Assembly (NCBI RefSeq): GCF_003627965.1
Contig: NZ_RBWE01000001.1
Span: 1,356,769 to 1,420,768 of the forward strand
Length of the DNA: 64,000 bases
Direction: 5' to 3'
Source: Desulfofundulus salinus
GTDB lineage: Bacteria; Bacillota; Desulfotomaculia; Desulfotomaculales; Desulfovirgulaceae
A program made the position numbers and the translations under genes. Of this stretch, positions 27,759 to 45,553 are shown piece after piece (the first letter of the stretch is position 1; every line of letters begins with the position of its first letter). Below the pieces are notes generated by a model. It saw only the letters and a list, made by a program, of their open reading frames with translations. It was not told the DNA's origin and made no database searches.

Positions 27759-29030
27759 ATGTTGCGTTATTTAACAGCCGGAGAATCACATGGTCCTGCT
27801 TTGACGGTCATCATTGAAGGGTTACCCGCCGGATTGGCCCTGCCGGAAGATTATGTAAACCGGCAACTGGCCCGGCGCCAGGGCGGCTACGGCCGGGGCG
27901 GCCGCATGCGGATCGAGCAGGACCGGGTGCGTTTTCTGGCCGGAGTCAGGGGTGGTTTTACGCTGGGCAGCCCCGTAGCCCTGTACATCGAAAACCGGGA
28001 CTGGGCCAGCTGGCAGGAGATTATGGATCCCGGTGCTGCTGCCCGGCTGGACCAGCGGGTGGTCACCAGGCCCAGGCCGGGCCACGCCGACCTGGCCGGG
28101 GCTTTAAAATACGGTCACCGGGATATCCGCAACGTGCTGGAACGGGCCAGCGCCCGGGAGACGGCCGCCCGGGTGGCCGCCGGCAGTGTGGCCCGCCGTC
28201 TTCTGGAGGAACTGGGCATAGAGATCATCGGTCATGTGGTGCGTATCGGGCCGGTAGCGGCACCGGAACTGGACTTAATCCGGGAAATGCCGTCCACCCC
28301 TCCGGGCGGGGCCGGTAAAGGGCCGGATGAAGCGGAGGAAGATGGTGGGTGCGGGCCCGGCCGGCCGGGCGGGTCCCCGGGCGTGGATCTGCGCCGGCTG
28401 CGGGAGATTCTGGATGCTTCCCCCGTTTACTGCCTCCACCGGGAGACGGCAGAGGCGATGATGCGTGAAATCGACCGGGCCCGGGAAGCCGGGGACTCCC
28501 TGGGGGGTGTCTTTGAGATCCGGGTTTACGGCCTGCCGCCCGGCCTTGGCAGCTATGTCCACTGGGACCGCCGCCTGGACGGGCGCCTGGCCGGCGCGCT
28601 GATGAGCATTCAGGCCATCAAAGGGGTCGAGATCGGGCTGGGCTTTGCCGGTGCCGCCCTGCCCGGTTCGCAGGTGCACGATGAGATATTTTACAGCCGG
28701 GAGAGGGGTTTTCACCGCCGCACCAACCGGGCCGGCGGCCTGGAGGGGGGCGTGACCAACGGTGAGCCACTGATAGTGCGGGCGGCCATGAAACCCATCC
28801 CTACCTTATATAAACCTTTACGCAGTGTGGATCTGGCCTCTAAGGAACCCTTTACTGCCTCGGTGGAACGCTCCGATGTCTGTGCCGTACCGGCCGCCTG
28901 CGTGGTGGGCGAGGCGGTGGTGGCCTGGGAACTGGCGGCGGCCTGCGTGGAGAAATTTGGCGGCGACACCCTGCAGGAAATGAAAGCAAATTATCAGCAA
29001 TACCTTGATTATCTCAAGACCAGGATATGA
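27759..29030 (+). CDS. aroC: Chorismate synthase
   Basis: FMN-dependent synthesis of chorismate from EPSP. Opens [21 protein letters not shown] and holds [36 protein letters not shown], and the C-terminal [13 protein letters not shown] and [11 protein letters not shown], all hallmark segments. At 423 aa it is about 30 longer than usual: a low-complexity Gly/Pro/Glu stretch at about residues 178-208 is not in typical homologues. All other elements are intact, so activity is likely. Between aroE and aroK. Confidence 0.93.
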
Positions 29031-29073
29031 TGATGATTGCCGGGTAGGACGGGAGTGTGGCGGAGGAGAGGAA

Positions 29074-29592
29074 ATGAAAAATATTGTCCTGATCGGTTTT
29101 ATGGGTACGGGGAAAAGTGCCGTCGGCCGGCGCCTGGCTGCCCGCCTGGGGCGGGAATTTGTGGATACCGACGAGGAGATAGAGCGGGTTACCGGCAAAA
29201 CCATTCCCCAGATTTTTGCTCGGGACGGGGAGATCCGTTTCCGTTCGGAGGAGGCCCTGGTGGTGAAGAAGGTAGCCGCCAGGGACAACCTGGTGGTGGC
29301 CACCGGGGGCGGGGTGGTGCTGAACCCCGAAAATGTGCGGGCACTGCAGCAGAACGGCGTACTCATCGGGCTGGTGGCCGACCCCGGGGTAATTTACCAG
29401 CGGGTGAAGCGCAAGCGTAACCGGCCCCTGTTAAACGGCCCGGGGGACATCCTGGCCCGGATCAAAGAACTGCTGGCCGCCCGGGCAGGCGCCTACGCGG
29501 TGGCGGAATTCACCGTGGATACCGGCCGGCACACCATCGACGAGGTGGTGGAGATGATCATCGCCTACCTGAAGGAACGCGGAATTGTTTGA
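29074..29592 (+). CDS. aroK: Shikimate kinase
   Basis: Phosphorylates shikimate at the 3-hydroxyl with ATP. 172 aa. Walker A GFMGTGKSAVG at residues 8-18, the shikimate-binding VDTDEEIE segment, the DGE...FR motif, and the GGG of ATGGGVV are all present, as is the lid RNRPLLN. ATG 29074 has GGAGGAGAGG upstream; the frame open to 29005 overlaps the end of aroC and is not needed. Confidence 0.93.
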   Translation: MKNIVLIGFMGTGKSAVGRRLAARLGREFVDTDEEIERVTGKTIPQIFARDGEIRFRSEEALVVKKVAARDNLVVATGGGVVLNPENVRALQQNGVLIGLVADPGVIYQRVKRKRNRPLLNGPGDILARIKELLAARAGAYAVAEFTVDTGRHTIDEVVEMIIAYLKERGIV

Positions 29593-29646
29593 AACCGTAC
29601 AAAACGTAGAAGAACATAAAGGGATACCGAAGAAAGGACATCATCA

Positions 29647-30750
29647 ATGCAGGAAGTTTACATAAATCTTGGCGCCCGCAGTTACTCCATTTACGTTGAC
29701 ACCGGCCTGCTGCCCCGGCTGGGGGAGTACCTGAAAGTCCTCAAATTAACTCCCCGGGTGCTCCTCATTACCAACCCCGTGGTGGGCTCCCTTTACGGCG
29801 CGGTGGCCGAAACCGCCCTCAGGAATGCCGGTTTTGAGGTGATCCGGGCGGAGATACCCGACGGGGAGGAATATAAGAGCCTGGCCACGGCCGAAAAGCT
29901 CTACGACCTGGCCTACACCCGCGAACTGGACCGGCGGAGCCCCGTGGTGGCCCTGGGGGGCGGGGTGGTGGGGGACCTGGCCGGTTTTGTGGCCGCTACC
30001 TACCTAAGAGGCGTGCCCTTCATCCAGGTGCCCACCACGCTGCTTGCCCAGGTGGACTCCAGCGTGGGGGGCAAGGTGGCCGTCAACCACCCCCGGGGCA
30101 AGAACATCATCGGCGCCTTCTACCAGCCCCGGCTGGTCCTGGCCGACCTGGATGTGCTGAAGACCCTGGACCCGCGGGAGGTGCGGGCCGGCCTGGCCGA
30201 GGTGATCAAGTACGGCGTCATTGCCGATCAGGCCTTCTTTGCCTGGCTGGAGGAGAACCTGGAGCGTCTGCTGGCTCTGGAGGCCCGGGCCCTGGCCCAT
30301 GCCGTGGCCGTCTCCTGCCGCATTAAAGCGCGGGTGGTGCAGGAGGACGAAACCGAACAGGGCCGCCGGGCCATCCTCAACTTCGGCCACACCCTGGGCC
30401 ACGCCCTGGAGGCCCTCACCGGCTACACCACATACCGCCACGGGGAGGCGGTGGCCATCGGGATGGCGGCGGCGGTCCGGCTGGCGGTGGCCCTGGGGAT
30501 GTTCCCGGAAGGAGACGCCGCGCGGGTAATCAACCTTATCCGCCGGGCCGGTCTGCCGGTAGAAGTGCCCGCCGGGATCTCTCCGGGCGAGTTGCTGGCC
30601 TCCATGCGCCGGGACAAGAAAGTGCTGGCCGGGCGGCTTACCTTCGTCCTGCCGGTGGAAATAGGCCGGGTGGAGATCGTCCGGGACGCGCCGGAAGAAG
30701 CGGTGGGGCGGGTTTTGCGTTTATGCTGTAATCAAAAGTTAAAATTTTAA
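29647..30750 (+). CDS. aroB: 3-dehydroquinate synthase
   Basis: Converts DAHP to 3-dehydroquinate; NAD and a metal are bound. 367 aa. GGGVVGDLAGFVAATYLRGV, QVPTTLLAQVDSSVGGKVAVNHPRGKN (only partly shown here) and NFGHTLGHALE with the metal-binding His are visible, and the metal-binding Glu lies in the segment AGLAEVIKYG. AGGACA precedes the ATG. Last of the four clustered aro genes; aroQ is 16 kb away in the window, next to pepP. Confidence 0.94.
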   Translation: MQEVYINLGARSYSIYVDTGLLPRLGEYLKVLKLTPRVLLITNPVVGSLYGAVAETALRNAGFEVIRAEIPDGEEYKSLATAEKLYDLAYTRELDRRSPVVALGGGVVGDLAGFVAATYLRGVPFIQVPTTLLAQVDSSVGGKVAVNHPRGKNIIGAFYQPRLVLADLDVLKTLDPREVRAGLAEVIKYGVIADQAFFAWLEENLERLLALEARALAHAVAVSCRIKARVVQEDETEQGRRAILNFGHTLGHALEALTGYTTYRHGEAVAIGMAAAVRLAVALGMFPEGDAARVINLIRRAGLPVEVPAGISPGELLASMRRDKKVLAGRLTFVLPVEIGRVEIVRDAPEEAVGRVLRLCCNQKLKF

Positions 30751-30764
30751 GGAGAGATTGTCAC

Positions 30765-31526
30765 TTGCCGCTGCCCTGGTTCTGGTTCTTTTCTTTCCTC
30801 CTCGGCCTTTGTATCGGCAGCTTTTTAAACGTATGCATCTACCGCCTGCCCCGGGGGATGTCCCTGCTGGCGCCCCCCTCCCACTGCCCGGCCTGCGGCG
30901 CACGCCTGGGCCCTCTGGATTTAATCCCCGTGGTGAGCTATCTTTTCCTGCGGGGCCGGTGCCGTCGTTGCAGCGGGGCGATCTCCCCCCGCTACCTCCT
31001 GGTGGAGCTTTTGACCGGGGCCGGCTTCCTGCTGATTGCCCGGGAACACGGCCTGCACGTTCATACTGCCGGCCTGCTGGTCCTGTTTTCCGTCCTCGTG
31101 GCGGCCAGCTTCATTGACCTGGACCACCGGATCATCCCCGACCGGCTCACCCTGTTTGCTCTGGCCACCGGCATACCCCTGGCCGCCCTCCAGGGTGCGG
31201 AGGCTCTCAAAGACGGCCTCATAGGCTCTGTGCTGGGGGGCGGAATATTGTTGATCGTGGCCCTGTTTTCGCGGGGCGGCATGGGCGGTGGGGACGTGAA
31301 GCTGGCCTTTGCCATCGGATGGTACCTGGGCTGGCAGGAGACCCTGGTGGCCCTGTTCCTGGCGTTTGTGCTGGGTGCGGTTGTGGGGGTTTTATGGGCG
31401 CTCAGGACGGGGAGGACCCTTAAAACGGCCATCCCCTTCGGCCCGTTTCTTTCATCGGGAGCCATGCTGGCCGTGTTGACAGGGGATAAGCTTATTTCCT
31501 GGTATCTGAACCTGTGGGGTGGTTGA
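30765..31526 (+). CDS. pilD: Prepilin peptidase
   Basis: Membrane aspartic protease that cleaves and N-methylates type IV prepilins. 253 aa with about seven membrane spans. The cytoplasmic zinc-type loop has CPAC and CRRC pairs, and the two catalytic Asp motifs are in FIDLDHRIIPD and GGGDVKLA. A TTG start has AAGGAGAG 7 bases upstream. It starts the pilus operon and overlaps or abuts pilB. Confidence 0.93.
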   Translation: MPLPWFWFFSFLLGLCIGSFLNVCIYRLPRGMSLLAPPSHCPACGARLGPLDLIPVVSYLFLRGRCRRCSGAISPRYLLVELLTGAGFLLIAREHGLHVHTAGLLVLFSVLVAASFIDLDHRIIPDRLTLFALATGIPLAALQGAEALKDGLIGSVLGGGILLIVALFSRGGMGGGDVKLAFAIGWYLGWQETLVALFLAFVLGAVVGVLWALRTGRTLKTAIPFGPFLSSGAMLAVLTGDKLISWYLNLWGG

Positions 31527-31528
31527 AA

Positions 31529-33223
31529 ATGGCCGTTTACACCAGAAAGCGCCTGGGGGACCTCCTTCTGCAAACCGGGTTGATTACCCGGGAGCAGTTG
31601 AACCAGGCGCTCGAGGTGCAGAAGCAGACCGAGGAGCGCCTGGGCCGGGTTCTCATCAACCTGGGCCTGGTCACGGAGCAGGACATCCTGAACACCCTGG
31701 AAATGCAGCTGGGCATTCCCCAGATTACCCTGATGGACAAAGTCGACCCCGTGCTGATCAAATCTCTCCCCGAGGCCGTCCTGCGCCGGCATAAGGTGGT
31801 GCCCGTGAAAAAAGAGGGACGGCGGCTGATCGTGGCCATGTCCGACCCCCTGAACCTGGTTGCCCTGGACGACATCCGCCTGGCCAGCGGGCTGGAAGTG
31901 GAGCCGGTGCTGGCCCGGGAAGAGGAAATCGACGCCGTCCTCCAGAAGGTATTCGGCCTTACCTTTGTGGAGCAGGCCTTCGGCCAGCCGGCCGCCCCGG
32001 AGGAGCGGGAAATCCAGACCCTCACCCTGGCGGCGGGGGATGAGGTGCCCCCGGAGGAAGCACCGGTGGTGCGCCTGGTCAATACCATCATTGCCCAGGC
32101 GGTGTCGGAAAAGGCCAGCGATATTCATATTGAACCACAGGAGGACCGGGTGCTGGTGCGTTACCGGGTGGATGGGTTGTTGAGGGAAGCCCTTACTCTG
32201 CCCCGGCATATCCGCTCCAACCTTACTACCAGGATCAAAATCCTGGCCGGCCTGGACATTGCCGAAAAGCGCCTCCCCCAGGACGGCCGGTTTCAGGTTA
32301 AGTACGGGGAACAGGAAATAGATGTGAGGGTATCCACCCTGCCTACGGTTCACGGGGAAAAGGTGGTCCTGCGTTTGCTGCTTAAGAGCGGGCGGATCCT
32401 GCCCGTTGACCGGCTGGGATTCCACCGCTACAACCTGGAGCGTTTTACAGAGGTAATCCATCGCACTTCCGGCATGATCCTGGTCACCGGGCCCACCGGC
32501 AGCGGCAAGACCACCACCCTGTACGCGGTACTGGCCCAGTTGAATTCCCCGGAGCGCAATATTGTGACCATAGAGGACCCGGTGGAGTACCTCCTGCGGG
32601 GGATCAACCAGACCCAGATCAACGTGAAAGCCGGGCTTACCTTTGCCGCCGGCCTGCGCTCCATCCTCCGCCAGGACCCGGACATCATCATGGTGGGGGA
32701 AATAAGGGACGGGGAGACGGCCCAGATCGCGGTGAGGGCGGCCACCACCGGCCACCTGGTGCTCAGCAGCCTGCACACCAACGACGCCGCGGGTGCCCTG
32801 ACCCGCCTCATCGATATGGGGGTGGAGCCCTTCCTGGTGGCCTCCTCGGTGGTAGGCGTGGTTTCCCAGCGCCTGGTGCGCCTGCTCTGCCCCCGCTGCC
32901 GGGAGCCCTACCAGCTCCCGGAAGACGCGCCGGAGAGGATTTTCATGGGCCTGCCGCCCGGTGAGCCGGTGACCCTTTACCGGGCCGCCGGCTGCCACCA
33001 CTGCAACCACACCGGTTACCGGGGGCGGACGAGCATCCAGGAGGTGCTGCCCGTGACCCGGGCCATAAGGGAGCTGGTAAATAAAAAAACTTCTGCCGAT
33101 GTGATCAAAGAAAAGGCGGTGGCCGAGGGAATGGTCACCCTGAAGGAAGATGGAATAGACAAGGCCCGGCAGGGGATCACCTCCATAGCGGAAGTGATGC
33201 GCGTGGCCTATAACGAGTGGTGA
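31529..33223 (+). CDS. pilB: Type IV pilus assembly ATPase PilB
   Basis: Hexameric extension ATPase (GspE/PilB family), 564 aa. The N-terminal MshEN domain includes RLGDLLLQTGLITREQLNQAL, a domain that in related proteins binds c-di-GMP. The core has Walker A TGPTGSGKTTTLYA, an Asp box IEDPVEYL, Walker B, and a C-terminal tetracysteine zinc site CPRC and CHHC. ATG 31529 is preferred; GTG 31514 overlaps the pilD end. With the riboswitch at 34405 this suggests two layers of c-di-GMP control. Confidence 0.93.
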   Translation: MAVYTRKRLGDLLLQTGLITREQLNQALEVQKQTEERLGRVLINLGLVTEQDILNTLEMQLGIPQITLMDKVDPVLIKSLPEAVLRRHKVVPVKKEGRRLIVAMSDPLNLVALDDIRLASGLEVEPVLAREEEIDAVLQKVFGLTFVEQAFGQPAAPEEREIQTLTLAAGDEVPPEEAPVVRLVNTIIAQAVSEKASDIHIEPQEDRVLVRYRVDGLLREALTLPRHIRSNLTTRIKILAGLDIAEKRLPQDGRFQVKYGEQEIDVRVSTLPTVHGEKVVLRLLLKSGRILPVDRLGFHRYNLERFTEVIHRTSGMILVTGPTGSGKTTTLYAVLAQLNSPERNIVTIEDPVEYLLRGINQTQINVKAGLTFAAGLRSILRQDPDIIMVGEIRDGETAQIAVRAATTGHLVLSSLHTNDAAGALTRLIDMGVEPFLVASSVVGVVSQRLVRLLCPRCREPYQLPEDAPERIFMGLPPGEPVTLYRAAGCHHCNHTGYRGRTSIQEVLPVTRAIRELVNKKTSADVIKEKAVAEGMVTLKEDGIDKARQGITSIAEVMRVAYNEW

Positions 33224-33248
33224 CGGAAAAGGAAGGTGTTGCGGCGGA

Positions 33249-34334
33249 ATGCATGCCGATGAACTTTTAAAGCTGGCCTTCGAGCTGAAAGCTTCCGATA
33301 TCCACCTTACTGCCGGCCGTCCGCCCGTCTTCCGGGTTCACGGGAAGCTTTTTGCGGCCGACGAGCTGGGCGCCCGGGCCGTGCCGGGGGTGGAGGATCT
33401 GCCCGTCCTCACCGCCGGGGATACCGAGGCCCTGGCCCGCCAGCTGATCCCCGGGGACCGGTTCCAGCAGTTCATGCAGGTGGGCGAGAGCGACCTGTCT
33501 TACGCCATCCCGGGAGTGGGCCGCTTCCGCGTGAACGCCTTCAAGCAGCGCGGTACGGTGGCCCTGGCCATCCGCCTCATCCCGGAGCGCATCCCCACCT
33601 TCGATGAACTGGGCCTGCCCGAGGTGGTGGCCCACCTGGCCAGGCGGCCCCGGGGCCTGGTGCTGGTTACCGGGCCCACGGGCAGCGGCAAGTCCACCAC
33701 CCTGGCGGCCATGATCGACCTCATCAACAGCGAAAGCCGCCTGCACATCATCACCCTGGAAGACCCCATCGAGTACGTCCACCGGCACAAGAAGAGCCTG
33801 GTCAACCAGCGGGAAATCGGCCGGGACTCCCTTTCTTTTGCCGCCGCCCTGCGTGCGGCCCTGCGGGAGGACCCCGACGTCATCCTGGTGGGGGAGATGC
33901 GGGACCTGGAGACCATCGCTACGGCCATCACCGCCGCCGAAACCGGTCACCTGGTGCTGGCCACCCTGCACACCACCAGCGCAGCCCAGACCATCGACCG
34001 CATCATCGACGTTTTCCCGCCCCATCAGCAGCAGCAGGTCCGGCTGCAGCTGGCCGGCGCCCTGGAAGGAGTGATTGCCCAGCAGTTGCTGCCCCGCAGG
34101 GACCGTCCCGGCCGGGTGGCGGCGCTGGAAATCCTGGTGGCCACGCCGGCCATCCGCAACCTCATCCGGGAGGGGAAGACCCACCAGATTATCTCCCACC
34201 TGCAGACCGGGGCCAGGTACGGTATGCAGACGCTGGATATGGCTTTAAGAAACCTCGTCCGTACAGGGGTGATCGGCAGGGAGGAGGCCCTGGCCCGGGC
34301 GGCTGATGCCGAAAATTTGTTAAAAATGATTTAA
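33249..34334 (+). CDS. pilT: Pilus retraction ATPase PilT
   Basis: Depolymerises pili. 361 aa. The start MHADELLKLAFELKASDIHLTAGRPP, Walker A VTGPTGSGKSTTLAAM, Asp box TLEDPIEYVH, Walker B ILVGEMRD and the LHTTSAAQTIDRI His-box are all clear. ATG 33249 follows pilB after 26 bases. It is the last gene before the riboswitch, so pilD-pilB-pilT can be made when the pilC-pilin part is off. Confidence 0.94.
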   Translation: MHADELLKLAFELKASDIHLTAGRPPVFRVHGKLFAADELGARAVPGVEDLPVLTAGDTEALARQLIPGDRFQQFMQVGESDLSYAIPGVGRFRVNAFKQRGTVALAIRLIPERIPTFDELGLPEVVAHLARRPRGLVLVTGPTGSGKSTTLAAMIDLINSESRLHIITLEDPIEYVHRHKKSLVNQREIGRDSLSFAAALRAALREDPDVILVGEMRDLETIATAITAAETGHLVLATLHTTSAAQTIDRIIDVFPPHQQQQVRLQLAGALEGVIAQQLLPRRDRPGRVAALEILVATPAIRNLIREGKTHQIISHLQTGARYGMQTLDMALRNLVRTGVIGREEALARAADAENLLKMI

Positions 34335-34404
34335 AACAACCAGCTGGTTATTGACTGGCAGGGCAGCTGCCGTTAAGATAGTTTTCAGGAAGAGTGCGGC
34401 AAAG

Positions 34405-34495
34405 CGAAAAAAGGCAAACCTGCCGAAAGGCAGGGGCGCAAAGCCGCGGGCCTAAAGCGGCATGCAAGGCCGCCATGGCAGCCGGGCTGCCGAAC
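34405..34495 (+). promoter_or_regulatory. c-di-GMP-I (GEMM) riboswitch
   Basis: The order of conserved blocks is that of the GEMM-I aptamer: GGCAAACC, then a GAAA tetraloop closing P2 (TGCCGAAAGGCA), GGCGCAAAGCC, GGGCCTAA, a variable hairpin, then CCATGGCAGCCGGGCTGCC. It lies in the 226-base gap between pilT and pilC and is followed by an intrinsic terminator at 34511-34534. Boundaries are approximate and no covariance score was run. Confidence 0.88.
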
Positions 34496-34510
34496 TTTCC
34501 GGCACGTACT

Positions 34511-34534
34511 TCCAGGCGCGTCGCCTGGATTTTT
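34511..34534 (+). terminator. Riboswitch-linked terminator before pilC
   Basis: TCCAGGCG (34511-34518) and CGCCTGGA (34522-34529) form a perfect 8-bp stem with a 3-base loop and a T run at 34530-34534. It is placed as an expression platform for the aptamer: ligand state would decide whether transcription continues into pilC. Confidence 0.8.
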
Positions 34535-34560
34535 ATTTCCGGGAGGTGGTGAGGGGAGCT

Positions 34561-35781
34561 TTGCCCGTCTATGCCTATCGGGCCCGGGATTTAACCGGCA
34601 GGGTGGTTTCCGGCCGGCTGGAAGCCAGCGGACCAAGGGAGGCGGCCAGGATACTGCAGGGCCAGCGGCTCATCCCCGTGCAGATCCGGGCCGTGCGGGG
34701 GGGCGTCAGCCTGCCTATGCGGCTGCCTTCATTCCGGCGTGGAGTCAGGCTGAGGGAGCTGGCCCTCTTCTGCCGCCAGCTTTCCACCCTGGTCAGCGCC
34801 GGCGTGCCCCTGGTGGGGGCCATGCGCATCCTGGAGCTGCAGGTGGAGGGCCGGGTGCTCAAAGAGGTGGTGCGCGGGGTGACCGCCCGCCTGGAGCAGG
34901 GACACTCCCTGGCCGAATCCTTCGGCGCCTACACCTCGGTCTTCCCCGAGATCTTCATCAGCATGGTGGAGGCCGGGGAAGTGGGCGGCGTGCTGGACGA
35001 GGTGCTGGAGAGCCTGGCCGGACATTTTGAGAGGGAACACGAGGTGAGGGAAAAGGTGAAGTCGGCCCTCACCTACCCCACCATGGTCCTGGGCTTTGCC
35101 GTGGTCATCCTCACCTTCGTGCTCACCTTCGTCCTGCCCCCCATCATCAATACCATCCAGAACCTGGGTGTGTCCCTGCCCCTGCCCACCCGGGTGGTGA
35201 TGGGAGCCAGCCGCCTGGTGGGGCGCTACTGGTACCTCCTCCCGCTGTTTCCGCTGGCGGCGGCTTTTGGCTTTCAGCGCCTGCGGGCCTCGCCCCGGGG
35301 CCGGGAGATCTGGGACCGCCTGGTCCTGAAAATGCCCGTATTCGGACCGGTGCTGAAAAAAATAATTATTGCCCGCTTCGCCCGCACCCTGGCCGCCATG
35401 CTCAAAGGCGGGGTGCCCATCATCCAGGCCCTGGAAGTGGTGAAGAAAACCGCCGGCAACCAGGTGGTGGCGGCCGGCGTGGCCAGGGCGCAGGAGAGCG
35501 TGCGGGAGGGGCAGGGCCTGGCCGGCCCCCTGGAAGAAAGCGGCATCTTCCCCCCGCTGGTCATCCGCATGATTGCCGTGGGGGAAGAAACCGGCAGCCT
35601 GGACGCGCTGCTGGTCCGCATCGGCGCCTTTTACGACCAGGAAGTGAACATCACCGTGGGCCGTCTCTCCAGCGTGCTGGAGCCGGTGCTGATTGTCTTC
35701 CTGGGCGGCATAGTGGGGTTCATCGTCCTTTCGGTGCTCCTGCCCATGTTCACCAGCATGATGCAGGGGCTGGGCAGGTAG
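34561..35781 (+). CDS. pilC: Pilus inner-membrane platform protein PilC
   Basis: Integral membrane protein that couples the ATPases to pilus growth. 406 aa, two T2SSF domains with three main membrane segments (VILTFVLTFVLPPII near residues 185-200, the LLPLFPLAAAFG segment, and a C-terminal VFLGGIVGFIVLSVLLPMF). The start is TTG 34561 giving PVYAYRARDLTGRVVSG, the usual beginning; a longer frame to 34462 would begin inside the riboswitch and is rejected. Ribosome sites GGGAGG and GAGGGGAG are nearby but not ideally spaced, so GTG 34549 is possible. Confidence 0.9.
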   Translation: MPVYAYRARDLTGRVVSGRLEASGPREAARILQGQRLIPVQIRAVRGGVSLPMRLPSFRRGVRLRELALFCRQLSTLVSAGVPLVGAMRILELQVEGRVLKEVVRGVTARLEQGHSLAESFGAYTSVFPEIFISMVEAGEVGGVLDEVLESLAGHFEREHEVREKVKSALTYPTMVLGFAVVILTFVLTFVLPPIINTIQNLGVSLPLPTRVVMGASRLVGRYWYLLPLFPLAAAFGFQRLRASPRGREIWDRLVLKMPVFGPVLKKIIIARFARTLAAMLKGGVPIIQALEVVKKTAGNQVVAAGVARAQESVREGQGLAGPLEESGIFPPLVIRMIAVGEETGSLDALLVRIGAFYDQEVNITVGRLSSVLEPVLIVFLGGIVGFIVLSVLLPMFTSMMQGLGR

Positions 35782-35841
35782 GGCGGTGGTTTCAAAGGTG
35801 TTCTTACATACTCTAACCGGCCGTTTAGGCACCGTTTCCAG

Positions 35842-35859
35842 GTCAATTATTTAATTGAC
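35842..35859. promoter_or_regulatory. Palindrome over a possible -35 of the main pilin gene
   Basis: GTCAATT and AATTGAC arms with 4 bases between overlap TTGACA (35855-35860). The -10 region is a poor match, so the promoter is tentative; a palindrome here could be an operator. Confidence 0.4.
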
Positions 35860-35902
35860 AACCCTTTTTATTAAGACACTACTTTTTGGGGAGGGAAAAA
35901 CT

Positions 35903-36400
35903 ATGCGCAAAAAACTCAAGGACAACCGCGGCTTCACCCTGGTGGAGCTGCTGGTGGTCATCGCCATCATTGGCATCCTGGCCGCCATCATCGCCCCCAA
36001 CGCCTTCAAGGCCATTGAAAAGGGCAAGGTGGCGGCGGCGGAAGCGGATTACAAGGCCATCAAGGCGGCGGCGCTGAACTACTATACAGATACAGGTAAA
36101 TGGCCTATGGCTACTGATAATTCTTGGTCCGACGAAACAGAGTGTTTTGTTACAGGAAAATCAGATTCTTCCCAGAACCCCGCTGGCTGGAACGGCCCCT
36201 ACCTGGAGCGCTGGCCCAGCAAGAACCCGTGGGGCGGGACTTATACTTTTAAAAATGAAAGCTCAAAAAGAAGTCTTGAACTTAATTCTGTCCCCTCCAG
36301 CGCCGCAACTAAAATGAAAGCTGACCTTGGCAATGATGTAGTCGAGATAGACGGTTCGGGTGCTACTGTCACCGTCGACATTCTAATCTCGAAGGACTAA
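35903..36400 (+). CDS. Type IV pilin / GspG-like major pseudopilin
   Basis: A class III-type prepilin: short basic leader [10 protein letters not shown], cleavage before [19 protein letters not shown], and mature Glu5. The later part, [25 protein letters not shown], is characteristic of GspG-type major pseudopilins. 165 aa. ATG 35903 has GGGGAGGG upstream. Positioned directly after pilC, so it is likely the main pilin under the riboswitch, although it may also have its own promoter. Confidence 0.88.
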
Positions 36401-36653
36401 GAAGTTGTAATGTTATAAAAGTGATGTTGTGTCGTTTCTCTGAAGTAAGAGAGCGGCTAGAGCAAAGTACCGGTGAAATCTTTGAGTAAAAGCAGCGAGC
36501 ATGCAACGGAGATATTGCGCGGTCGGAGTAGTCTGCCTGCGGCGTTCGGGTGCCGGGGCAGGCTACCCGGCCCCACCTTAATCTGCCCCGCCATTTTCCG
36601 GCAGGGGTGGGTGGTGAGTAGATGCGATTTCTTCCGGGGAAGGATGTGAGCCG
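36401..36653. other. Intergenic stretch with a long hairpin
   Basis: No intact gene. A strong hairpin with arms GTAGTCTGCCTGCGGC and GCCGGGGCAGGCTAC lies near 36525-36568, followed by GGGG/CCCC-rich segments. No T run follows, so it is not an obvious terminator. I could not match it to a riboswitch. Confidence 0.4.
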
Positions 36654-36779
36654 GTGAGGTTTCGTCTATCAAACCTGCGCCGCGATCAGCGCGGCTTCAC
36701 CCTGGTGGAGCTTCTGGTGGTCATCGAACCTTTAAGTACGCCTGCAATGCTTCATGTAGTAGACGAGGAATGGTTATGA
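36654..36779 (+). pseudogene. Truncated prepilin N-terminus
   Basis: A GTG-start frame gives [20 protein letters not shown], then VVIE and an unrelated end (41 aa). It has the full leader, cleavage site and half of the hydrophobic helix of a pilin, then loses the rest. It overlaps the start of the next pseudopilin gene. Probably a degenerated extra pilin rather than a working one. Confidence 0.65.
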
Positions 36780-37162
36780 TTATGCGTACATTTTCCAGAC
36801 ATGACCGCGCCTTTACCCTGATCGAGGTCCTGGTGGCCGCCGCCATTCTGGTGCTGGTGGCGGCCACTGCCGTAAATCTGATGGTTTCGGGCAAAATGGC
36901 GGCTAAAGCAGCCTGGGAGGACACGGTGGCCGTTAACGCCGCCCAGGCCGTGATGGAGGAACTGCTGGCCGGCTCCCTTGCCGGCGGCGAAAGGCAGGAT
37001 GAACCGCGGCCCTTTCCCGGCGCGTCCGGTTATACTTACACATATTCGGTAGAGACCTATCAGCCGGATGATCGGCTGGTCCAGGTGCGGGTCAACGTCC
37101 ACTACCGGCACCAGGGGCGGGAGCGGCAGCTGGAACTGGTAACGCTGAAACGCAGGGGATGA
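36776..37162 (+). CDS. PilV-type minor pseudopilin
   Basis: About 129 aa. Prepilin signature RHDRAFTLIEVLVAAAILVLVAATAV with Glu5, then a soluble part with a strand-rich C-terminus (YSVETYQPDDRLVQVRVNVHYRHQ). Such minor pilins prime fibre assembly. ATG 36776 has GAGGA upstream; alternatives at 36770 and 36782. Partly overlaps the truncated pilin upstream. Confidence 0.82.
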   Translation: MIMRTFSRHDRAFTLIEVLVAAAILVLVAATAVNLMVSGKMAAKAAWEDTVAVNAAQAVMEELLAGSLAGGERQDEPRPFPGASGYTYTYSVETYQPDDRLVQVRVNVHYRHQGRERQLELVTLKRRG

Positions 37163-37202
37163 CGGCCGGCGCAAATTTGATGAGTTGGCGGGACGAGGCC
37201 TG

Positions 37203-37817
37203 ATGGGACCGGTTAAAAAAGTTGCAGTGCGCAGAGCGGTTGGCGATAATAACGCGGCTATAACCGCTAAAGGAGCCGGGTACGTAAAATATGGCACGGC
37301 TGATACACCGGCCTCTGGTCGGCGGGCCGCCCTGCCGGGACTGGCGGTTGACCGCCGGGGCCTGACGCTGATCGAGGTTCTGGTGACGGCCGTCCTTCTT
37401 TCTTTAATCCTGGGGGCGGCCTATTTCGTCGTCGACAGCACCATGCTCAACTGGAAAAAAGGCGACGAGCAGGTTGACGTGCAGCAGAACCTGCGGCTGG
37501 CCATGGACCGGCTGACCCGGGAACTGAGGGTCAGTGCAGGGGTGGACGAAATAAATCCCCAATCATACATCATTTTTAAGAGCCCGGACAATACAAAATA
37601 CATCAAGTATTATCTTTACGGCGGCGAGATCAAGCGGGCCACCAGCACTGATAAAGCCTCCTGGCAAGGGAATAATCCCGTGGCCGGGCGGGTTCAGGCG
37701 GTATCATTCCAGGGAGTTACCGGCTTGCCGGCTACGGTGGAGATAAAGCTCACCGGCACCAACGGTTTTGTCTTAACTTCCCGTGTGACCGTGCGGATGA
37801 TGCGCGAACAAAATTGA
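37203..37817 (+). CDS. PilW-type minor prepilin
   Basis: About 204 aa. The prepilin motif RRGLTLIEVLVTAVLLSLIL is present, preceded by an unusually long N-terminal leader of about 50 residues. The mature part (DEQVDVQQNLRLAMDRLTRELR) is typical of PilW/GspJ-type proteins. ATG 37203 is chosen; TTG 37185 is possible and so is a start nearer the motif. Next in the pilin series. Confidence 0.75.
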   Translation: MGPVKKVAVRRAVGDNNAAITAKGAGYVKYGTADTPASGRRAALPGLAVDRRGLTLIEVLVTAVLLSLILGAAYFVVDSTMLNWKKGDEQVDVQQNLRLAMDRLTRELRVSAGVDEINPQSYIIFKSPDNTKYIKYYLYGGEIKRATSTDKASWQGNNPVAGRVQAVSFQGVTGLPATVEIKLTGTNGFVLTSRVTVRMMREQN

Positions 37818-37870
37818 TTTTTCCGGGAATAGATGTTCTGTATGGAAGTGATTTGGGAGGGCGACCTGTA

Positions 37871-39229
37871 TTGACCGGCGGGCAAAAGGGAAAATTCGAG
37901 AGCGGGCAGGTATGCCGGAGGCTCCCTGCTTTCTGGAAAAACATGCGTGCCGGAGCACAAAAAGGCGCGGCCCTGGTCACGGTGATCCTGCTCACCCTCC
38001 TGCTCCTGGTCTTTGCCGGCTCCCTGGTCCAGCTGACCACGGTGGACAAAAGAATGTCCGCCAGCCAGGTAGCCATGACCCAGGCCCTTTATTTGGCCGA
38101 GGCGGGAGTGGAAATGATGGTCGTCCGGCTGGCCGGGAATTTTGATGCCGGGCCGCCGTCCACGCCAATCGTGCTGGGGAACGGCCGGATTTCCAAAATT
38201 ACCGTGAACCCGGTGGACGCCAGCACCAGAGAGATCCTGGCCGAGGGGCGGGCGGGCAACGCCCGCAAGGCACTCAAAGTGCGGGTGCAGCGCACGGCTA
38301 CTCCCGTGCTGCAGAACGCCCTTTGTGCCGGAAATTCCCCTAACTTAAGCGGCAACGTATCTATTAGCGGTAACTTGTTGATTAACGGCAATTTGGAAAC
38401 TGGCTCCAGTATAAGCCTTACCAATTCCAGGCTGGTGGTGGTGAAGGGCAATCTGGATAATAAAAATGGTAGCATCAACATTTTGTCCGGAGGCAGCCTT
38501 TTGGTGGGAGGCAACCTCTATAATAGACACGGCCGCATTGAAACACCGGGCTACCTCCAGGCAGACGGTGCCATCGATAATTCTTCAGGCACCGTGATTT
38601 TCTCCCCCGGCGGGACCTACTTCACCCCCGCCACGCAATATCCGGCGGGCACGTTTATCATTCAAAATGACGGCCAGGTACCCCGGCTGGACGGCCCGCG
38701 GGAAAATATTGCTGCCCTTGTAGAGCCGGCCGCCCTTCTGGATCCAGCGGGAAAAGTGGCTGCCTACCAGGGCTATCCCCGTTTGGGTGTAACCGAAACG
38801 GGAAACAGGTTCGAGAGCAATCTTACCGGCAGGTCTGCCGGGACCTATTACCTGGACACCGGTGGAAAGGAACTCTGGCTTGAGGGTACATACAGCGGGA
38901 AATGGGTTATTGCCGTTAAAGGGAACGTGGAGATCAGCGGCGATTTGCAGCCGGCAAATGCAGGCCGGGACGTCCTGGTTTTGCATGTAGACGGTACGGT
39001 TAGCGTACACGGGAATGAAAACGTCAGCGCCGTTATATATGCGTGCCGGTTCGAAGCCGGCGGGAGCAGTACCATCAGGGGGACGGTGGTTGCCCAATCT
39101 TTTGATGTCAGTGGTAACGTAAGCCTGATCCAGGATAATGACCTGATCCAGAACGCCGTTCCCGTCCTGCCGTCAGACCTGGTCACTGTGAAAATTATTT
39201 CCTGGCAGGAGGAATACCCCGTATTTTGA
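37871..39229 (+). CDS. PilX-like pilus-associated protein
   Basis: About 452 aa. The N-terminal hydrophobic helix GAALVTVILLTLLLLVFAGSL is followed by KRMSASQVAMTQALYLAEAG, typical of PilX N-terminal domains (no Glu5-type pilin). The remainder is rich in short strands (SGNVSISGNLLINGN, GGSLLVGGNLYNRHG), resembling a parallel beta-helix. TTG 37871 with GGGAGGG 9 bases upstream is preferred; ATG 37946 is an alternative. It probably acts at the pilus base or tip. Confidence 0.75.
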   Translation: MTGGQKGKFESGQVCRRLPAFWKNMRAGAQKGAALVTVILLTLLLLVFAGSLVQLTTVDKRMSASQVAMTQALYLAEAGVEMMVVRLAGNFDAGPPSTPIVLGNGRISKITVNPVDASTREILAEGRAGNARKALKVRVQRTATPVLQNALCAGNSPNLSGNVSISGNLLINGNLETGSSISLTNSRLVVVKGNLDNKNGSINILSGGSLLVGGNLYNRHGRIETPGYLQADGAIDNSSGTVIFSPGGTYFTPATQYPAGTFIIQNDGQVPRLDGPRENIAALVEPAALLDPAGKVAAYQGYPRLGVTETGNRFESNLTGRSAGTYYLDTGGKELWLEGTYSGKWVIAVKGNVEISGDLQPANAGRDVLVLHVDGTVSVHGNENVSAVIYACRFEAGGSSTIRGTVVAQSFDVSGNVSLIQDNDLIQNAVPVLPSDLVTVKIISWQEEYPVF

Positions 39230-39329
39230 TTTCCCGAGCCTGCCCGTACGTCCTGAAAATTTGGTAACATATCCATTTCAGGGTTTCCTTTAAGCAGGAC
39301 TTTTTTACTTTCGCCACGAAAATATATGC

Positions 39330-39824
39330 ATGTTTCGGCAGTGTTCGTTCCCAAAAGTTATATCCTCGCCCGGGGGCATTACTTTACTCGAGGTTCTTGT
39401 CTCCACGGCCATCAGTGCCACCCTGCTTTTAATTGCGGTGCCCGCCGTACTTAACGGTTTGAGCAAGTACGCCCTGTACACCAGCGCCCGCCAGATAGCT
39501 ACAGATATTCGCGGCTGGCAGCAACAGGCCCTTTCCGCAGGGGATACCATGTCTACTTACAGCATACAGTTTGATCCTTTCAACGACGCCTATCATTTAA
39601 TGATTAATAATGTATCCAGACAAAAGCAGTGTCTCCCTGTTTACCTGGACCTGGTCTCGACAAATTTTCCGTCCAATGAGCTTAAATTTAACCTGCGGGG
39701 GATCCCCATTTCCGGTGGCGGGACGGTTACCTTGAGTGAAAAATTGACCCGAAGACGGTATTACGTCATTGTCGCCCCTGTTACCGGAAGGGTGCGAGTT
39801 TCTCCTCTGCCTCCGGCAGGTTAA
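39330..39824 (+). CDS. GspH/FimT-type pseudopilin
   Basis: A 164-aa prepilin-like protein: SPGGITLLEVLVSTAISATLLLIAV is the leader/helix junction with the conserved Glu, and a GspH-type C-terminal domain follows (YYVIVAPVTGRVRVSP). The ribosome site is weak. It ends the pilin set and precedes pilM by 30 bases. Confidence 0.78.
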   Translation: MFRQCSFPKVISSPGGITLLEVLVSTAISATLLLIAVPAVLNGLSKYALYTSARQIATDIRGWQQQALSAGDTMSTYSIQFDPFNDAYHLMINNVSRQKQCLPVYLDLVSTNFPSNELKFNLRGIPISGGGTVTLSEKLTRRRYYVIVAPVTGRVRVSPLPPAG

Positions 39825-39854
39825 TCCAGATTATTTAATAATGGAAGGTCACCA

Positions 39855-40919
39855 ATGTTCAGAAGCAAAACTTTTACTGCTGTTGACATCGGAGCGGGCG
39901 AAATCAAAATTGCGGTTCTTTCCTGCTGCCGCCGGAGGGTGATCTGCAACCTGCTGCATCGTTACTTGAGCCCCGGCATGGAGCACCTGGAAGAGGACAG
40001 GACTGATGAACTGGCCGCAGCTCTCAAGGCGGCCTTTAAATCTGCACCCGGAGCAGGAAGAAAGGTAATTACCGCCATCGGGGGGCAAGGAGTGATTACC
40101 CGGCAGCTGCGCCTGCCGGCAATGCCAATGAAGGAACTGGAACAGGCGGTCGTGTGGGAGGCGGAGAAACTGGTGCCGCTGCCCGTCGATGAACTGGTAA
40201 TCCGGCCCGTGGTGCTTGGGGAAAGCCAGAACGGAGAAAGCGGGCTGTTTCATGTCCTCCTGGTGGCCGTAAGAAAAGAACTTGTCTACCGTTATTACGA
40301 GGCCTTCGACCGGGCCGGCCTGCAGGTTACGGCCATCGACCTGCATCACCTGGCCCTGTGGCGGGTCTTTCACGGTTCTTTTGGATACCCGGTTCATGAC
40401 GGTGGGGTACGGGCAGTGCTGGATCTGGGTTTTTCTTCCGGTCAGTTTATCGTTTTAAAAGGACAGGAACTGGTTTATGTGCGTTCTTTGCCGGTCGAAT
40501 TGGGAAGGTTGCTGCCCGCGGGCGTTTTTGAACCGGCACCGGCAGAACCTGCACCACCCCCCGGGGGTGAGGAAATACCGGGCGGGGAAGCCGCTGCCGC
40601 TGCGGAAGAACTGTCCGGTGAATATGCCGGTTATGATGAAGCACAGTTCGAACTTTTGGGGGAGCTGGTACGGGAGATCCGCCGCTCCCTGGACTTTTAC
40701 CAGCTGCAGGAGCGGGACAACCCGGTGGAAACCCTGGTGGTTACCGGCGGCTTCAGCAAAATCAAGGGGTTACCTGCTTATCTGGCTGACCAGCTGGGAA
40801 TAAGAGTGGCGGCCGGTTTTCCCCGGCTGCCCTTCCGGGATGTTAAGAATACTCCCCAGGTGCTGGACCCGGGCTTTTCCGTGGCGGTGGGCCTGGCTTT
40901 GCGGGAGGTGCTAAAGTGA
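39855..40919 (+). CDS. pilM: PilM, actin-like pilus assembly protein
   Basis: 354 aa. FtsA/actin-type fold: TAVDIGAGEIKIAVL at the N-terminus, AVLDLGFSSGQFIVL in the middle and VVTGGFSKIKGLPAYLADQLG at the end are the ATPase phosphate and adenosine loops. An acidic Ala/Pro-rich loop (about residues 215-250) interrupts the second half. It overlaps pilN by 4 bases, so the two are coupled. Confidence 0.9.
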   Translation: MFRSKTFTAVDIGAGEIKIAVLSCCRRRVICNLLHRYLSPGMEHLEEDRTDELAAALKAAFKSAPGAGRKVITAIGGQGVITRQLRLPAMPMKELEQAVVWEAEKLVPLPVDELVIRPVVLGESQNGESGLFHVLLVAVRKELVYRYYEAFDRAGLQVTAIDLHHLALWRVFHGSFGYPVHDGGVRAVLDLGFSSGQFIVLKGQELVYVRSLPVELGRLLPAGVFEPAPAEPAPPPGGEEIPGGEAAAAAEELSGEYAGYDEAQFELLGELVREIRRSLDFYQLQERDNPVETLVVTGGFSKIKGLPAYLADQLGIRVAAGFPRLPFRDVKNTPQVLDPGFSVAVGLALREVLK

Positions 40920-41698
40920 ATTACCGGGTTAACCTCCTGCCTGCGGAACTGCAACCCGGGCCCGTCCTGGAACCGAAACGCCTGCTGTTGATTTCACTGG
41001 CTACCCTCACAGCAGGGGGGCTTGTTACTGCCTGTGTCTTTTGGGGCATAAATTTTCACCACATGCGTATTGAGCTGGCTGCCGTCAAGCGGCAGGTGCC
41101 CAAACTCCAGGAAACGGTTGCCCGGCTGGAGGAGCTCAAGAAACAGCGCCAGGAGCTGGAGGCGGCGTCCGGTGAACTGGAACGCCTGCTCCAGCAAAGG
41201 CACACCTGGTCCAGAATGTTGCTGGACCTCAATAAAGTGGTCCCCCGGGAAATCTGGCTGACTGCTCTGCGATTGCAGGCGGCTGGAAATGTTTCAGGAG
41301 CAGGCCAGAATGTGACCGGACCCGCCACCGCTCAAAAACCGGGTTCCGTTCCCTCCCTGCTGCAGAGCAGCCTGGAGCATGATGCACTCCAGCAGGTATC
41401 CGCTCAGCCCGGGGCACCGGCAGCCGTGCCGGCAAGCCAGGGCGGGGAAACCGGGCAGCCGGGGCAGGCAGGCAGCCAGGTCCGGCGCGAGGACGGGAAT
41501 GCCATTCCCCAGCCGCCCGATACTTTAACCCTGGAAGGCAACACTACCTCCCTGGCCGCCGTGGGGGTATTCATTTATCACCTGGGAAAACTACCCTATT
41601 TCTCCCGGGTTGACCTGAACGAAATTAAATACGATGAGACAAAGGGCGTCGCCACTTTTAGTATTTCCGCCCGCCTAAAAGGGGGCGGTGGGGGTTGA
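40916..41698 (+). CDS. pilN: PilN, pilus alignment complex protein
   Basis: 260 aa. A single membrane span (LLLISLATLTAGGLVTACVFW) and a long coiled coil (KLQETVARLEELKKQRQELEAA, truncated here) precede a C-terminal ferredoxin-like domain with YFSRVDLNEIKYDE. A Gln/Pro/Gly-rich linker lies around residues 135-200. Binds PilM and PilO in the inner membrane. Confidence 0.85.
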   Translation: MNYRVNLLPAELQPGPVLEPKRLLLISLATLTAGGLVTACVFWGINFHHMRIELAAVKRQVPKLQETVARLEELKKQRQELEAASGELERLLQQRHTWSRMLLDLNKVVPREIWLTALRLQAAGNVSGAGQNVTGPATAQKPGSVPSLLQSSLEHDALQQVSAQPGAPAAVPASQGGETGQPGQAGSQVRREDGNAIPQPPDTLTLEGNTTSLAAVGVFIYHLGKLPYFSRVDLNEIKYDETKGVATFSISARLKGGGGG

Positions 41699-42444
41699 TG
41701 GCACGCGGCCTGGATAAGAAGACCAGAACCATACTCATTCTTTTACTGTTGCTGGCCTTTATTTATGCCGGTTACCGTTTCGTAATAATGACCCAAATCC
41801 AGGCTTACCAGAAGACAAAAACCGAGTTGAACGAAGCCAGGGCCCTCATTTCCCGGTTGTCCGCCAGGGCCGGTTCCCTGGAAGAGGAAAAAAAGGTCCT
41901 GGAAAAGGCCAGAAAGCGTTTTCTGGAGCTGAACAACAGATTCAACACCGATATGCAGGACGGCCAGTTTCTCGTTCAGTTCAGCCGTGTGACGGAAAAA
42001 AACCGGGTACTGGTGTTGAAATTTAAACCGCTGGCCATCGTGGACAGGGGATATGTGCTGGTTTTGCCTGTGGAAATAGAGCTGAGAGGTTTGTTTCCCC
42101 AGGTGACGCTGGTGATCGACTATCTGGAAAATCTCCCCAACCTGAGTGAGCTGCGCAATATTCAAATTACCCGTTACGAGCCTGAAAATGCGGGTGGACA
42201 GTCCCCGGCACTGCCCGATGGTACGGTGACGGCAAGTACGACGCTGCTGCTCTACTCCCGGCCGACTCCCGCCGGGCGCCTGCAGCTGGAGGAGGTCAGA
42301 CGCTGGGCCCTGGGCCGTTCCAACCCCTTCTTTTCAGGCCGGCCGCCTGTTTCTCCTGCATTGCCGGAACAGGCGGCGGAGCCGGCTGGCCGGGAGCCTG
42401 TTCCGGCGTCTGCACCGGAGCGAGCGGGAGCCAAAACAGGGTAG
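41698..42444 (+). CDS. pilO: PilO, pilus alignment complex protein
   Basis: About 248 aa. One N-terminal membrane segment (TILILLLLLAFIYAGYRF), a coiled coil and a PilO-type domain (VLVLPVEIELRGLFPQVTLVIDYLENL). A Pro/Ala-rich tail ends the protein. ATG 41698 shares an A with the pilN stop. No pilQ or pilP follows, in keeping with a single-membrane Gram-positive cell. Confidence 0.85.
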   Translation: MARGLDKKTRTILILLLLLAFIYAGYRFVIMTQIQAYQKTKTELNEARALISRLSARAGSLEEEKKVLEKARKRFLELNNRFNTDMQDGQFLVQFSRVTEKNRVLVLKFKPLAIVDRGYVLVLPVEIELRGLFPQVTLVIDYLENLPNLSELRNIQITRYEPENAGGQSPALPDGTVTASTTLLLYSRPTPAGRLQLEEVRRWALGRSNPFFSGRPPVSPALPEQAAEPAGREPVPASAPERAGAKTG

Positions 42445-42638
42445 TTGGAAAGTGGGGATAACTCAGGGTATAATCTTGTAAAAAGTCGGTTCAAAACCCC
42501 GGTTGCACCGCATCTGCCATTGCCTGTTTTAAAGAAATGGGCTTAATTTAGGTTATAGTAAAGAGGTATAAATGTTAAATTCTTACTAACAATATTACTT
42601 AATGTGCATTGATTAATCCCACCAGGAGGTGATTCTTT
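42445..42638. other. Intergenic region before tldD
   Basis: About 190 AT-rich bases. A TATAGT-like -10 candidate lies near 42560, but without a convincing -35. The end contains AGGAGGTG, the ribosome site of tldD. Nothing else is seen. Confidence 0.4.
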
Positions 42639-44057
42639 TTGGTCGACGAACAGTTGTTGAAAGAAGTTCTGGATCTCGCCCTGGCCAGCGGGGGAGATTT
42701 TGCCGATATTTTTGTCGAGCACAAACGGGCTACGGGTGTCGGCCTTGAAGGCGGCAAGATTGAGCGGGTCCATTCGGGCATAGACATGGGTGCCGGCATC
42801 CGCGTGATTAACGGTGATTCCACGGCCTATGCCTATACCAACGACCTGAGCAGGGAAGGCCTCCTCGAGGCCGCCCGCATTGTCAGTCATGCTTCCCGGG
42901 GGGAGAAAAAGGACTACCACCTGGACCTGCGCCGGGTGCGGCCACTGGTGGATTTTTCTATAGCAGAGCGTCCCGATGCGGTCAAGCCGGAACGCAAGGT
43001 GGAGGCGGTCCAGGCCGCCGACCGGGCCGCCCGGGCCGTGGATGTGGAGAAAATCAAGCAGGTAATGGTGGGCTACGGGGACGTGGTCCAGAAGGTGATC
43101 ATTGCCAACAGCGCCGGTGAATATGTGGAAGACGAGCGCATCCGCACCCGCCTGATGGTGCAGGTGGTGGCCGCCGAGGGGCCGACCATTCAAACGGGTT
43201 ACGAGGCCGTGGGCGGCCTGACCGGCTTTGAGCTGCTGGAGCGTTATCACCCCGAGTCGGTGGCGGAAATCGCGGCCCGGCGGGCCGTGGAGATGCTCAG
43301 GGCAAAGGAGGCCCCCAGCGGTAAAATGCCCGTGGTGATGGCCGGGGAGGCCGGGGGGACCATGGTTCACGAAGCCTGCGGCCACGGCCTGGAAGCGGAT
43401 CTGGTACAGAAGAAGCTTTCGGTTTATGCCGGCAAAAAGGGTCAAAAGGTGGCTGCCGACATTGTTACCGTTATCGATGACGCCAGCATGGCCGGCCATT
43501 ACGGTTCCTACCGCTTTGACGACGAGGGAGTGCCGGCCCGGAAAGTAACCCTGATTGAAAAAGGCGAGCTTACGGACTACATGTACGACCGGCTCACCGC
43601 TTCGCGGGAAGGGAAAGCATCCAACGGCCACGGCCGCCGGGAGTCCTACCAGCACAAACCCATCCCCCGCATGGGCAATACGTACATAGCCCCGGGCAGG
43701 ATGGACCCGGAAAAGATCATCCGGGAGACAAAAAATGGTCTTCTGGTGAAGAAAATGGGCGGCGGCCAGGTGAATACCACCACCGGGGATTTTGTTTTTG
43801 ACGTGGCCGAGGGGTACCTGATTCAGGACGGGGAAGTGGGCCCCATGGTGCGTGGTGCTACTTTAACGGGCAACGGCCCCGAAGTCCTGCGCATCGTGGA
43901 GATGATCGGCAAGGACCTGGGCTTCACCATCGGTACCTGCGGCAAGGACGGGCAGGGGGTACCGGTAAGCGACGCCCAGCCCACCATGGCCATCAAGGAG
44001 CTCATCGTGGGCGGCACAAGCCACAGCCGGCCCAGCGGCAGGATCCGGCGCCTGTAG
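42639..44057 (+). CDS. tldD: TldD metalloprotease
   Basis: 472 aa. The zinc motif HEACGH in GGTMVHEACGHGLEADL identifies TldD; the active subunit of the TldD/TldE heterodimer that degrades unfolded peptides and matures some peptide natural products. TTG 42639 with AGGAGGTG upstream. A Uma2-type gene, a DUF3243 gene and a YabG fragment lie between it and tldE. Confidence 0.93.
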   Translation: MVDEQLLKEVLDLALASGGDFADIFVEHKRATGVGLEGGKIERVHSGIDMGAGIRVINGDSTAYAYTNDLSREGLLEAARIVSHASRGEKKDYHLDLRRVRPLVDFSIAERPDAVKPERKVEAVQAADRAARAVDVEKIKQVMVGYGDVVQKVIIANSAGEYVEDERIRTRLMVQVVAAEGPTIQTGYEAVGGLTGFELLERYHPESVAEIAARRAVEMLRAKEAPSGKMPVVMAGEAGGTMVHEACGHGLEADLVQKKLSVYAGKKGQKVAADIVTVIDDASMAGHYGSYRFDDEGVPARKVTLIEKGELTDYMYDRLTASREGKASNGHGRRESYQHKPIPRMGNTYIAPGRMDPEKIIRETKNGLLVKKMGGGQVNTTTGDFVFDVAEGYLIQDGEVGPMVRGATLTGNGPEVLRIVEMIGKDLGFTIGTCGKDGQGVPVSDAQPTMAIKELIVGGTSHSRPSGRIRRL

Positions 44058-44095
44058 GACCGTCGGTCACAGGCAAAAGCTAAGGGGGGGCAATA

Positions 44096-44737: not shown

Positions 44738-44738
44738 C

Positions 44739-44772
44739 AAAAGGCAGGGTTCACTGCCGAACCCCGCCTTTT
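44739..44772. terminator. Terminator between the Uma2 and DUF3243 genes
   Basis: AAAAGGCAGGGTTC and GAACCCCGCCTTTT form a long stem with one mismatch and a 6-base loop. A and T runs at both ends suggest that it works in both directions for the convergent genes. Confidence 0.85.
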
Positions 44773-44801
44773 AATGTTTTATCTTTCTGCTTAAATTGTT
44801 C

Positions 44802-45089
44802 TTAAAACGCGGTGTAATTTCCCGGCCGCTCAGAAACCAGCCTGGTCATCAGGCTGGCGATGACCTGTTTTTCCTGCTGGTCGGCCACCTGCCATAACTC
44901 TTTTAGCACTTTTTGTTCCGGGTTGGCCGGGGGTACGTGATCGGCCAGCACCTGACCGGCCTGCTGAGCCAGATTTACAATGCGCTCCCGGGAAATGCCC
45001 AGCTCCTCCGCAAATTCCACCGCCTGGCCGAGAAAACGTTTCCAGTTATCCCAGTCCGTGCTAACCTGGCGAATATCCAATTTTAACAC
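44802..45089 (-). CDS. DUF3243 family protein
   Basis: 95 aa. WDNWKRFLGQAVEFAEELGISRE and KVLKELWQVADQQEKQVIAS match the DUF3243 family of small firmicute proteins of unknown function (YmfJ-like). Start with an AGGAG site upstream on the minus strand. Single gene between two terminators. Confidence 0.82.
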   Translation of the reverse strand: MLKLDIRQVSTDWDNWKRFLGQAVEFAEELGISRERIVNLAQQAGQVLADHVPPANPEQKVLKELWQVADQQEKQVIASLMTRLVSERPGNYTAF

Positions 45090-45458: not shown

Positions 45459-45553
45459 CTGCCGGCAGGCAGTTTTTTTGTTGGGCTCTAAAGGAATAGG
45501 CTGGCGGTTATTGAATAATACTTATGTTGACGTGGAAAGGAGTGGGATTTGCG

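Follow-up and report, generated by a model that had tools for sequence, protein, structure and literature searches.

The type IV pilus cluster in the 64 kb stretch of Desulfofundulus salinus DNA analysed here (the window) carries, between pilT and pilC, an element whose sequence identifies it as a c-di-GMP-I riboswitch, its expression platform being of the terminator type. This riboswitch is predicted to bind c-di-GMP and probably decides whether the platform and fibre genes of the pilus are expressed. The explanation that best accounts for the whole, to which we assign a probability of about 0.55, is a promoter-headed riboswitch that would be turned on by c-di-GMP through competition between helix P1 and the terminator, with PilB being gated through its MshEN domain. 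The element adds a further, well-placed member to a known type of switch and does not define a new type: c-di-GMP and cGAMP riboswitches before pilus genes (PMC6200980, PMC9262584) and MshEN domains in pilus motors (PMC5013675, PMC11731258) are already established. Neither this element nor the placement of a GEMM-I aptamer between pilT and pilC was described in the literature covered by a partial search.

The aptamer, its terminator and the pil cluster

The c-di-GMP-I (GEMM-I) aptamer matches Rfam family RF01051 over its full length (positions 1-87 of 87) at 34403-34494 on the plus strand of the window, with a score of 83.2 bits and E=6.9e-15, the E-value being scaled to the 64 kb window. The curated gathering cut-off of RF01051 in Rfam release 15 is 35 bits, and no variant family wins the clan comparison over RF01051. 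Downstream of the aptamer, a terminator-like hairpin of eight pairs, six of them G-C (TCCAGGCG-CGT-CGCCTGGA, 34511-34529, plus strand), is followed by TTTTTATTT, which provides the U-tract at 34530-34538; in the terminator scan, this site ranks first among the terminator-like sites in 29000-45600. The predicted intrinsic terminator constitutes the downstream expression platform of an RF01051 riboswitch (34511-34538) and is kept in relatives: an alignment of six species places aptamer and terminator at the same position in five relatives. In the direct counterpart of the window's switch, found in another genus of the family (locus L054, 8287-8375, minus strand; A at position 20), both terminator arms have changed together with the stem kept. 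That a complete GEMM-I aptamer and, after it, an intrinsic terminator lie between pilT and pilC had been proposed in an initial annotation made from the sequence alone, and the Rfam search that it had called for scores far over the threshold; the span that it had given, 34405-34534, is right as to the place but starts two bases late and ends a few bases before the end of the U-tract.

The ligand is contacted by G20, A47, and C92 in Vc2 numbering, which we take to correspond to G34413, A34440, and C34490 of the window. According to the sequence and the Rfam alignment, all three contact bases are present, and the aptamer is of the c-di-GMP type. An A at position 20 of GEMM-I aptamers is linked to cGAMP recognition or mixed specificity, and it occurs in some relatives at pil loci (L054, L080, L126, L132, and L134). 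Recognition of cGAMP rather than c-di-GMP in the style of GEMM-Ib is nevertheless highly improbable for the window, which carries G at this position (34413) along with an RF01051 match that no variant family surpasses.

The surrounding genes form a type IV pilus cluster in which prepilin peptidase, assembly and retraction ATPases, platform protein, pilins, and PilMNO occur together. Beyond aroB (29647, by Pfam/NCBIfam), the genes upstream of the riboswitch are pilD (30765-31526), pilB, encoding the assembly ATPase (31514-33223, plus strand; Pfam T2SSE and MshEN), and pilT, encoding the retraction ATPase (33249-34334, plus strand; NCBIfam TIGR01420, 482 bits versus a cut-off of 319). The first gene past the switch is pilC, encoding the inner-membrane platform protein (34561-35781, plus strand; Pfam T2SSF), and it is followed by pilin-like and minor-pilin-like genes (35855-39824, plus strand; N_methyl, T2SSG, and PilX_N matches within 35855-39229, no Pfam match at 39330-39824), by pilM, pilN, and pilO (39855-42444, plus strand, with starts at 39855, 40916, and 41695; PilM_2, PilN, and PilO), and, after pilO, by a TldD-like gene (42639). 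This order, with pilD, pilB, and pilT upstream and pilC, the pilins, and pilMNO downstream, had been read from the sequence beforehand and is borne out by Pfam and NCBIfam, PilB and PilC scoring slightly under the NCBIfam equivalog cut-offs for named subtypes. The likely start of pilC is the TTG at 34561, with which relatives align from residue 1. The mechanical open reading frame start, ATG 34462, was rejected: it lies inside the aptamer, and an in-frame TAA stands close before the TTG in the counterpart L054. Elsewhere in the window, CRISPR repeats (CRISPR-DR2) occupy 16667-19173 on the minus strand in two blocks about 1.6 kb apart.

Promoter and direction of the switch

A sigma-70-type promoter motif (TTGACT-17-TAAGAT, 34351-34379, plus strand), identified by a consensus scan and with an expected start site near 34386, sits downstream of the pilT stop (34334) and ahead of the aptamer; both hexamers are kept in the alignment of six species. 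In L054, the most diverged member, the spacer agrees at 3 of 17 bases by eye, yet the -35 hexamer reads TTGACT and the -10 hexamer TATCAT. The best sigma-70 site in the window's pre-aptamer gap outscores dinucleotide shuffles (p=0.005), and promoters are enriched in pilT-pilC gaps with a riboswitch across nine non-redundant loci, among them L088 with a riboswitch-like match below the Rfam cut-off (Fisher p=1.7e-7 against dinucleotide shuffles); three of 14 riboswitch gaps are individually not significant. In the 17 pilT-pilC gaps without a riboswitch, the best sigma-70 sites were no better than shuffles (p=0.64). Since the promoter is conserved among relatives between pilT and the aptamer, the riboswitch most likely heads its own transcription unit of pilC, the pilins, and pilMNO, with promoter activity being predicted from the motif. 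The initial annotation had the element splitting the pilus operon; its position between pilT and pilC stands, but the split is not a simple one, as a conserved promoter precedes the aptamer.

No terminator was found between pilT and the promoter, so transcripts reading through from the upstream genes would encounter the switch too, and they may be attenuated in addition. That the element is a mid-operon attenuator without a promoter of its own, acting only on pilD-pilB-pilT transcripts, would suit this lack of a terminator, the mere 17 bases from the pilT stop to the -35 hexamer, and the placement of all genes on one strand; we regard it as unlikely, given that the promoter motif in the gap is both conserved and enriched and that the conserved leader starts only a few bases beyond the expected start site. 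Directly 5′ of the -35 hexamer lies a palindrome, AACCAGCTGGTT (34339-34350), which is exact in most close relatives and is a possible operator.

In the proposed mechanism, RNA polymerase would start at the promoter, or possibly arrive from pilT, and transcribe a leader carrying the aptamer; it would then either stop at 34530-34538 or go on into pilC, the pilins, and pilMNO. Binding of c-di-GMP would stabilise helix P1, the distal end of which (GGAAG/CUUCC) would take the base of the 5′ arm of the terminator, so that full closure of the terminator would be hindered and read-through promoted. PilD, PilB, and PilT would be made independently of the switch, and pilus building would be gated twice, at transcription and at the motor via c-di-GMP bound by the MshEN domain of PilB.

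The strands invoked here hardly vary among the six aligned species. The leader strand AGGAAGAGUGCGGCAAAG (34387-34404, plus strand) would provide the 5′ strand of P1 with its distal extension GGAAG, and the strand CUUUCCGGCACGUACUUCC (34495-34513, plus strand) the 3′ strand (CUUUCCGGCAC) with the extension CUUCC; the leader AGGAAG and the CTTCC are invariant in all six. Together they can form P1 plus a distal GGAAG/CUUCC helix that uses the base of the terminator 5′ arm, which the CUUCC extension overlaps. An analogous pair in other letters, UUGGAA/UUCCAA, is likewise located at the terminator base in L055, a locus from another family. That this conserved leader segment can pair with the terminator base suggests an ON switch, a direction that would agree with the C. 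difficile pilA1 and Geobacter pilM riboswitches.

We hold this direction to be the likelier one with only moderate confidence, because the terminator is preferred in equilibrium folding and the pairing does not stand out from shuffles. The P1 extension and the terminator arm share three bases, and their mutual exclusivity is favoured neither by energy nor by shuffles. The extended P1 folds 1.5 kcal/mol worse than the full terminator in the window at 37 °C, relatives being similar or worse, and the leader/terminator pairing is not significant against shuffled leaders (p=0.33 for the window, combined p=0.37 over seven loci, the C92 position used in this cross-species test being off in some loci outside the window's group). 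Equilibrium folding was set aside as a means of deciding between the two directions: the probability of the terminator hardly changes with or without the aptamer.

An OFF switch resembling Cd1, in which bound c-di-GMP would let the terminator form and shut off pilC and the pilins while an antiterminator would form in the unbound state, is a possibility that we consider rather unlikely. The aptamer overlaps the terminator only slightly, the predicted folds can accommodate both, as in Cd1 (PMC9262584), and a pairing of about -13 kcal/mol is available between the 3′ arm of the terminator and the aptamer strand 34481-34491. To form, however, this antiterminator would need to disrupt P2, a GC-rich aptamer helix; its pairing is no better than shuffles (p=0.44), and c-di-GMP raises pilus gene expression in C. 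difficile (PMC6200980). A further possible pairing, of CUUUCCGG (34495-34502) with CCGGGAGG (34539-34546), would hide the ribosome site; pyrimidine tracts pair in this way by chance.

PilB, c-di-GMP signalling and occurrence in the order

The MshEN domain consists of two motifs of the form RLGxx(LVI)(LVI)xxG(LVI)(LVI)... joined by a five-residue spacer (PMC11731258). At the N-terminus of the window's PilB, which reads RLGDLLLQTGLITREQLNQALEVQ-KQTEE-RLGRVLINLGLVTEQDILNTLEMQ, two such motifs at residues 13-36 and 42-65 keep 11 of 11 and 10 of 11 key positions around the canonical spacer KQTEE, and the protein scores 68.6 bits against NCBIfam NF053729 (cut-off 38). The earlier assignment of an MshEN domain to PilB is thereby upheld, both c-di-GMP motifs being essentially intact. 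PilB probably binds c-di-GMP directly through this domain, and a second level of c-di-GMP control, at the motor, is plausible.

The window's own genome holds six GEMM-I aptamers over the cut-off and one weak copy, 13 GGDEF matches, one pilC match, and one MshEN domain; c-di-GMP is probably made in the host, as indicated by the 13 GGDEF matches. A tandem GEMM-I pair, each with a similar terminator (L005:1501-1588 and L007:1501-1589; C1:1567591-1567947), precedes flgB (NCBIfam TIGR01396) and, beyond it, more genes that look flagellar. Of the two copies, the second scores weakly (30.6 bits) and carries A at position 20. GEMM-I may control flagella as well as pili in this genome. Two other aptamers (L003, C1:2295857; L004, C1:1532837) stand before genes for proteins that by eye resemble HD-GYP phosphodiesterases (HHERYDGxGYP), which suggests feedback on c-di-GMP, and another (L006, C1:755946) stands before a transporter-like gene.

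The survey of the order covered 100 pilC loci in 95 genomes, which were scanned with a covariance model constructed for this analysis; pil genes were mapped by tblastn. Within the pil cluster, GEMM-I is found at one of three alternative points. In 13 loci, which represent six families, it separates pilT from pilC (pilB from pilC in L103); in 12 it precedes pilB; and in five it follows pilC, ahead of the pilins, two of these five having a tandem pair. The 13 loci of the first type all exceed the Rfam cut-off, some of them as matches to RF03167, the clan's GGC variant; weak riboswitch-like matches before pilC in L088 and L057 are below the Rfam cut-offs and were left outside the 13. Intact PilB MshEN motifs are found in 12 of 14 pilT-pilC loci versus none of the 12 loci with the switch before pilB. 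A functional trade-off between riboswitch position and intact MshEN was rejected as an account of this difference, which the PilB tree reduces to one independent contrast between two PilB clades.

Proteins 96-97% identical to the window's PilC occur in Desulfofundulus thermobenzoicus DSM 14055, D. thermosubterraneus DSM 16057, and a Desulfovirgula MAG. Two other loci of the window's genus (L073 and L086) carry a different pil cluster, without a riboswitch, at the same aroB-linked place; the order aroB-pilD-pilB-pilT-pilC is kept and PilC is only 46% identical, which suggests that the cluster was replaced within the genus. In L079:6756-6937 and L089:4895-5074, the GEMM-I before pilC spans about 180 bases over the 87-position model owing to a long insertion in one helix. 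A short contig from a genome of another family (L053; genome G014, family f4) encodes a PilC 97% identical to that of the window and is possibly misbinned.

It is tentatively proposed that a two-level c-di-GMP circuit is conserved in several families of the order, in which PilB and PilT would be made without the riboswitch, PilB would be tuned via MshEN, and an internal promoter with GEMM-I would gate the platform and fibre genes, the switch point lying at one of three places according to lineage. If true, c-di-GMP riboswitch control of type IV pili extends to thermophilic, Desulfofundulus-like bacteria, and a natural system would be at hand for testing whether a single messenger governs production as well as operation of the pilus. 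The three alternative switch positions within a single cluster can be compared to see which components of the pilus require gating at the level of transcription.

Comparison with known systems

In C. difficile, the class II c-di-GMP riboswitch Cdi-2-4 before pilA1 is an ON switch with read-through into type IV pilus genes (PMC6200980). The window's element would likewise be a c-di-GMP riboswitch with read-through into type IV pilus genes, whereas the class II aptamer belongs to another RNA family and Cdi-2-4 precedes the major pilin gene instead of lying between motor and platform genes. The pilM riboswitch of Geobacter metallireducens is an ON switch with the GEMM-I fold that responds to cGAMP and in which aptamer and terminator are mutually exclusive (PMC9262584). 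Although the window shares with it the aptamer fold, the terminator platform, and the pilus genes downstream, the Geobacter element senses cGAMP and is placed before pilM, and in contrast to its exclusivity the overlap of P1 and terminator in the window amounts to only three bases with a putative role. Cd1, the GEMM-I riboswitch before the flagellar flgB operon of C. difficile, has an aptamer and a terminator that are not mutually exclusive (PMC9262584). The window resembles Cd1 in its G-type c-di-GMP-I aptamer with a terminator able to coexist; unlike the window's element, Cd1 controls flagella and is an OFF switch, and the tandem GEMM-I before flgB in the window's own genome is its nearer counterpart. 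At the level of the motor, Vibrio cholerae MshE and Thermus PilF (MshEN/GSPII) carry two 24-residue motifs with a five-residue spacer at the N-terminus (PMC5013675, PMC11731258), and PilB of the window has two 24-residue motifs and a five-residue spacer as well; its binding of c-di-GMP is predicted.
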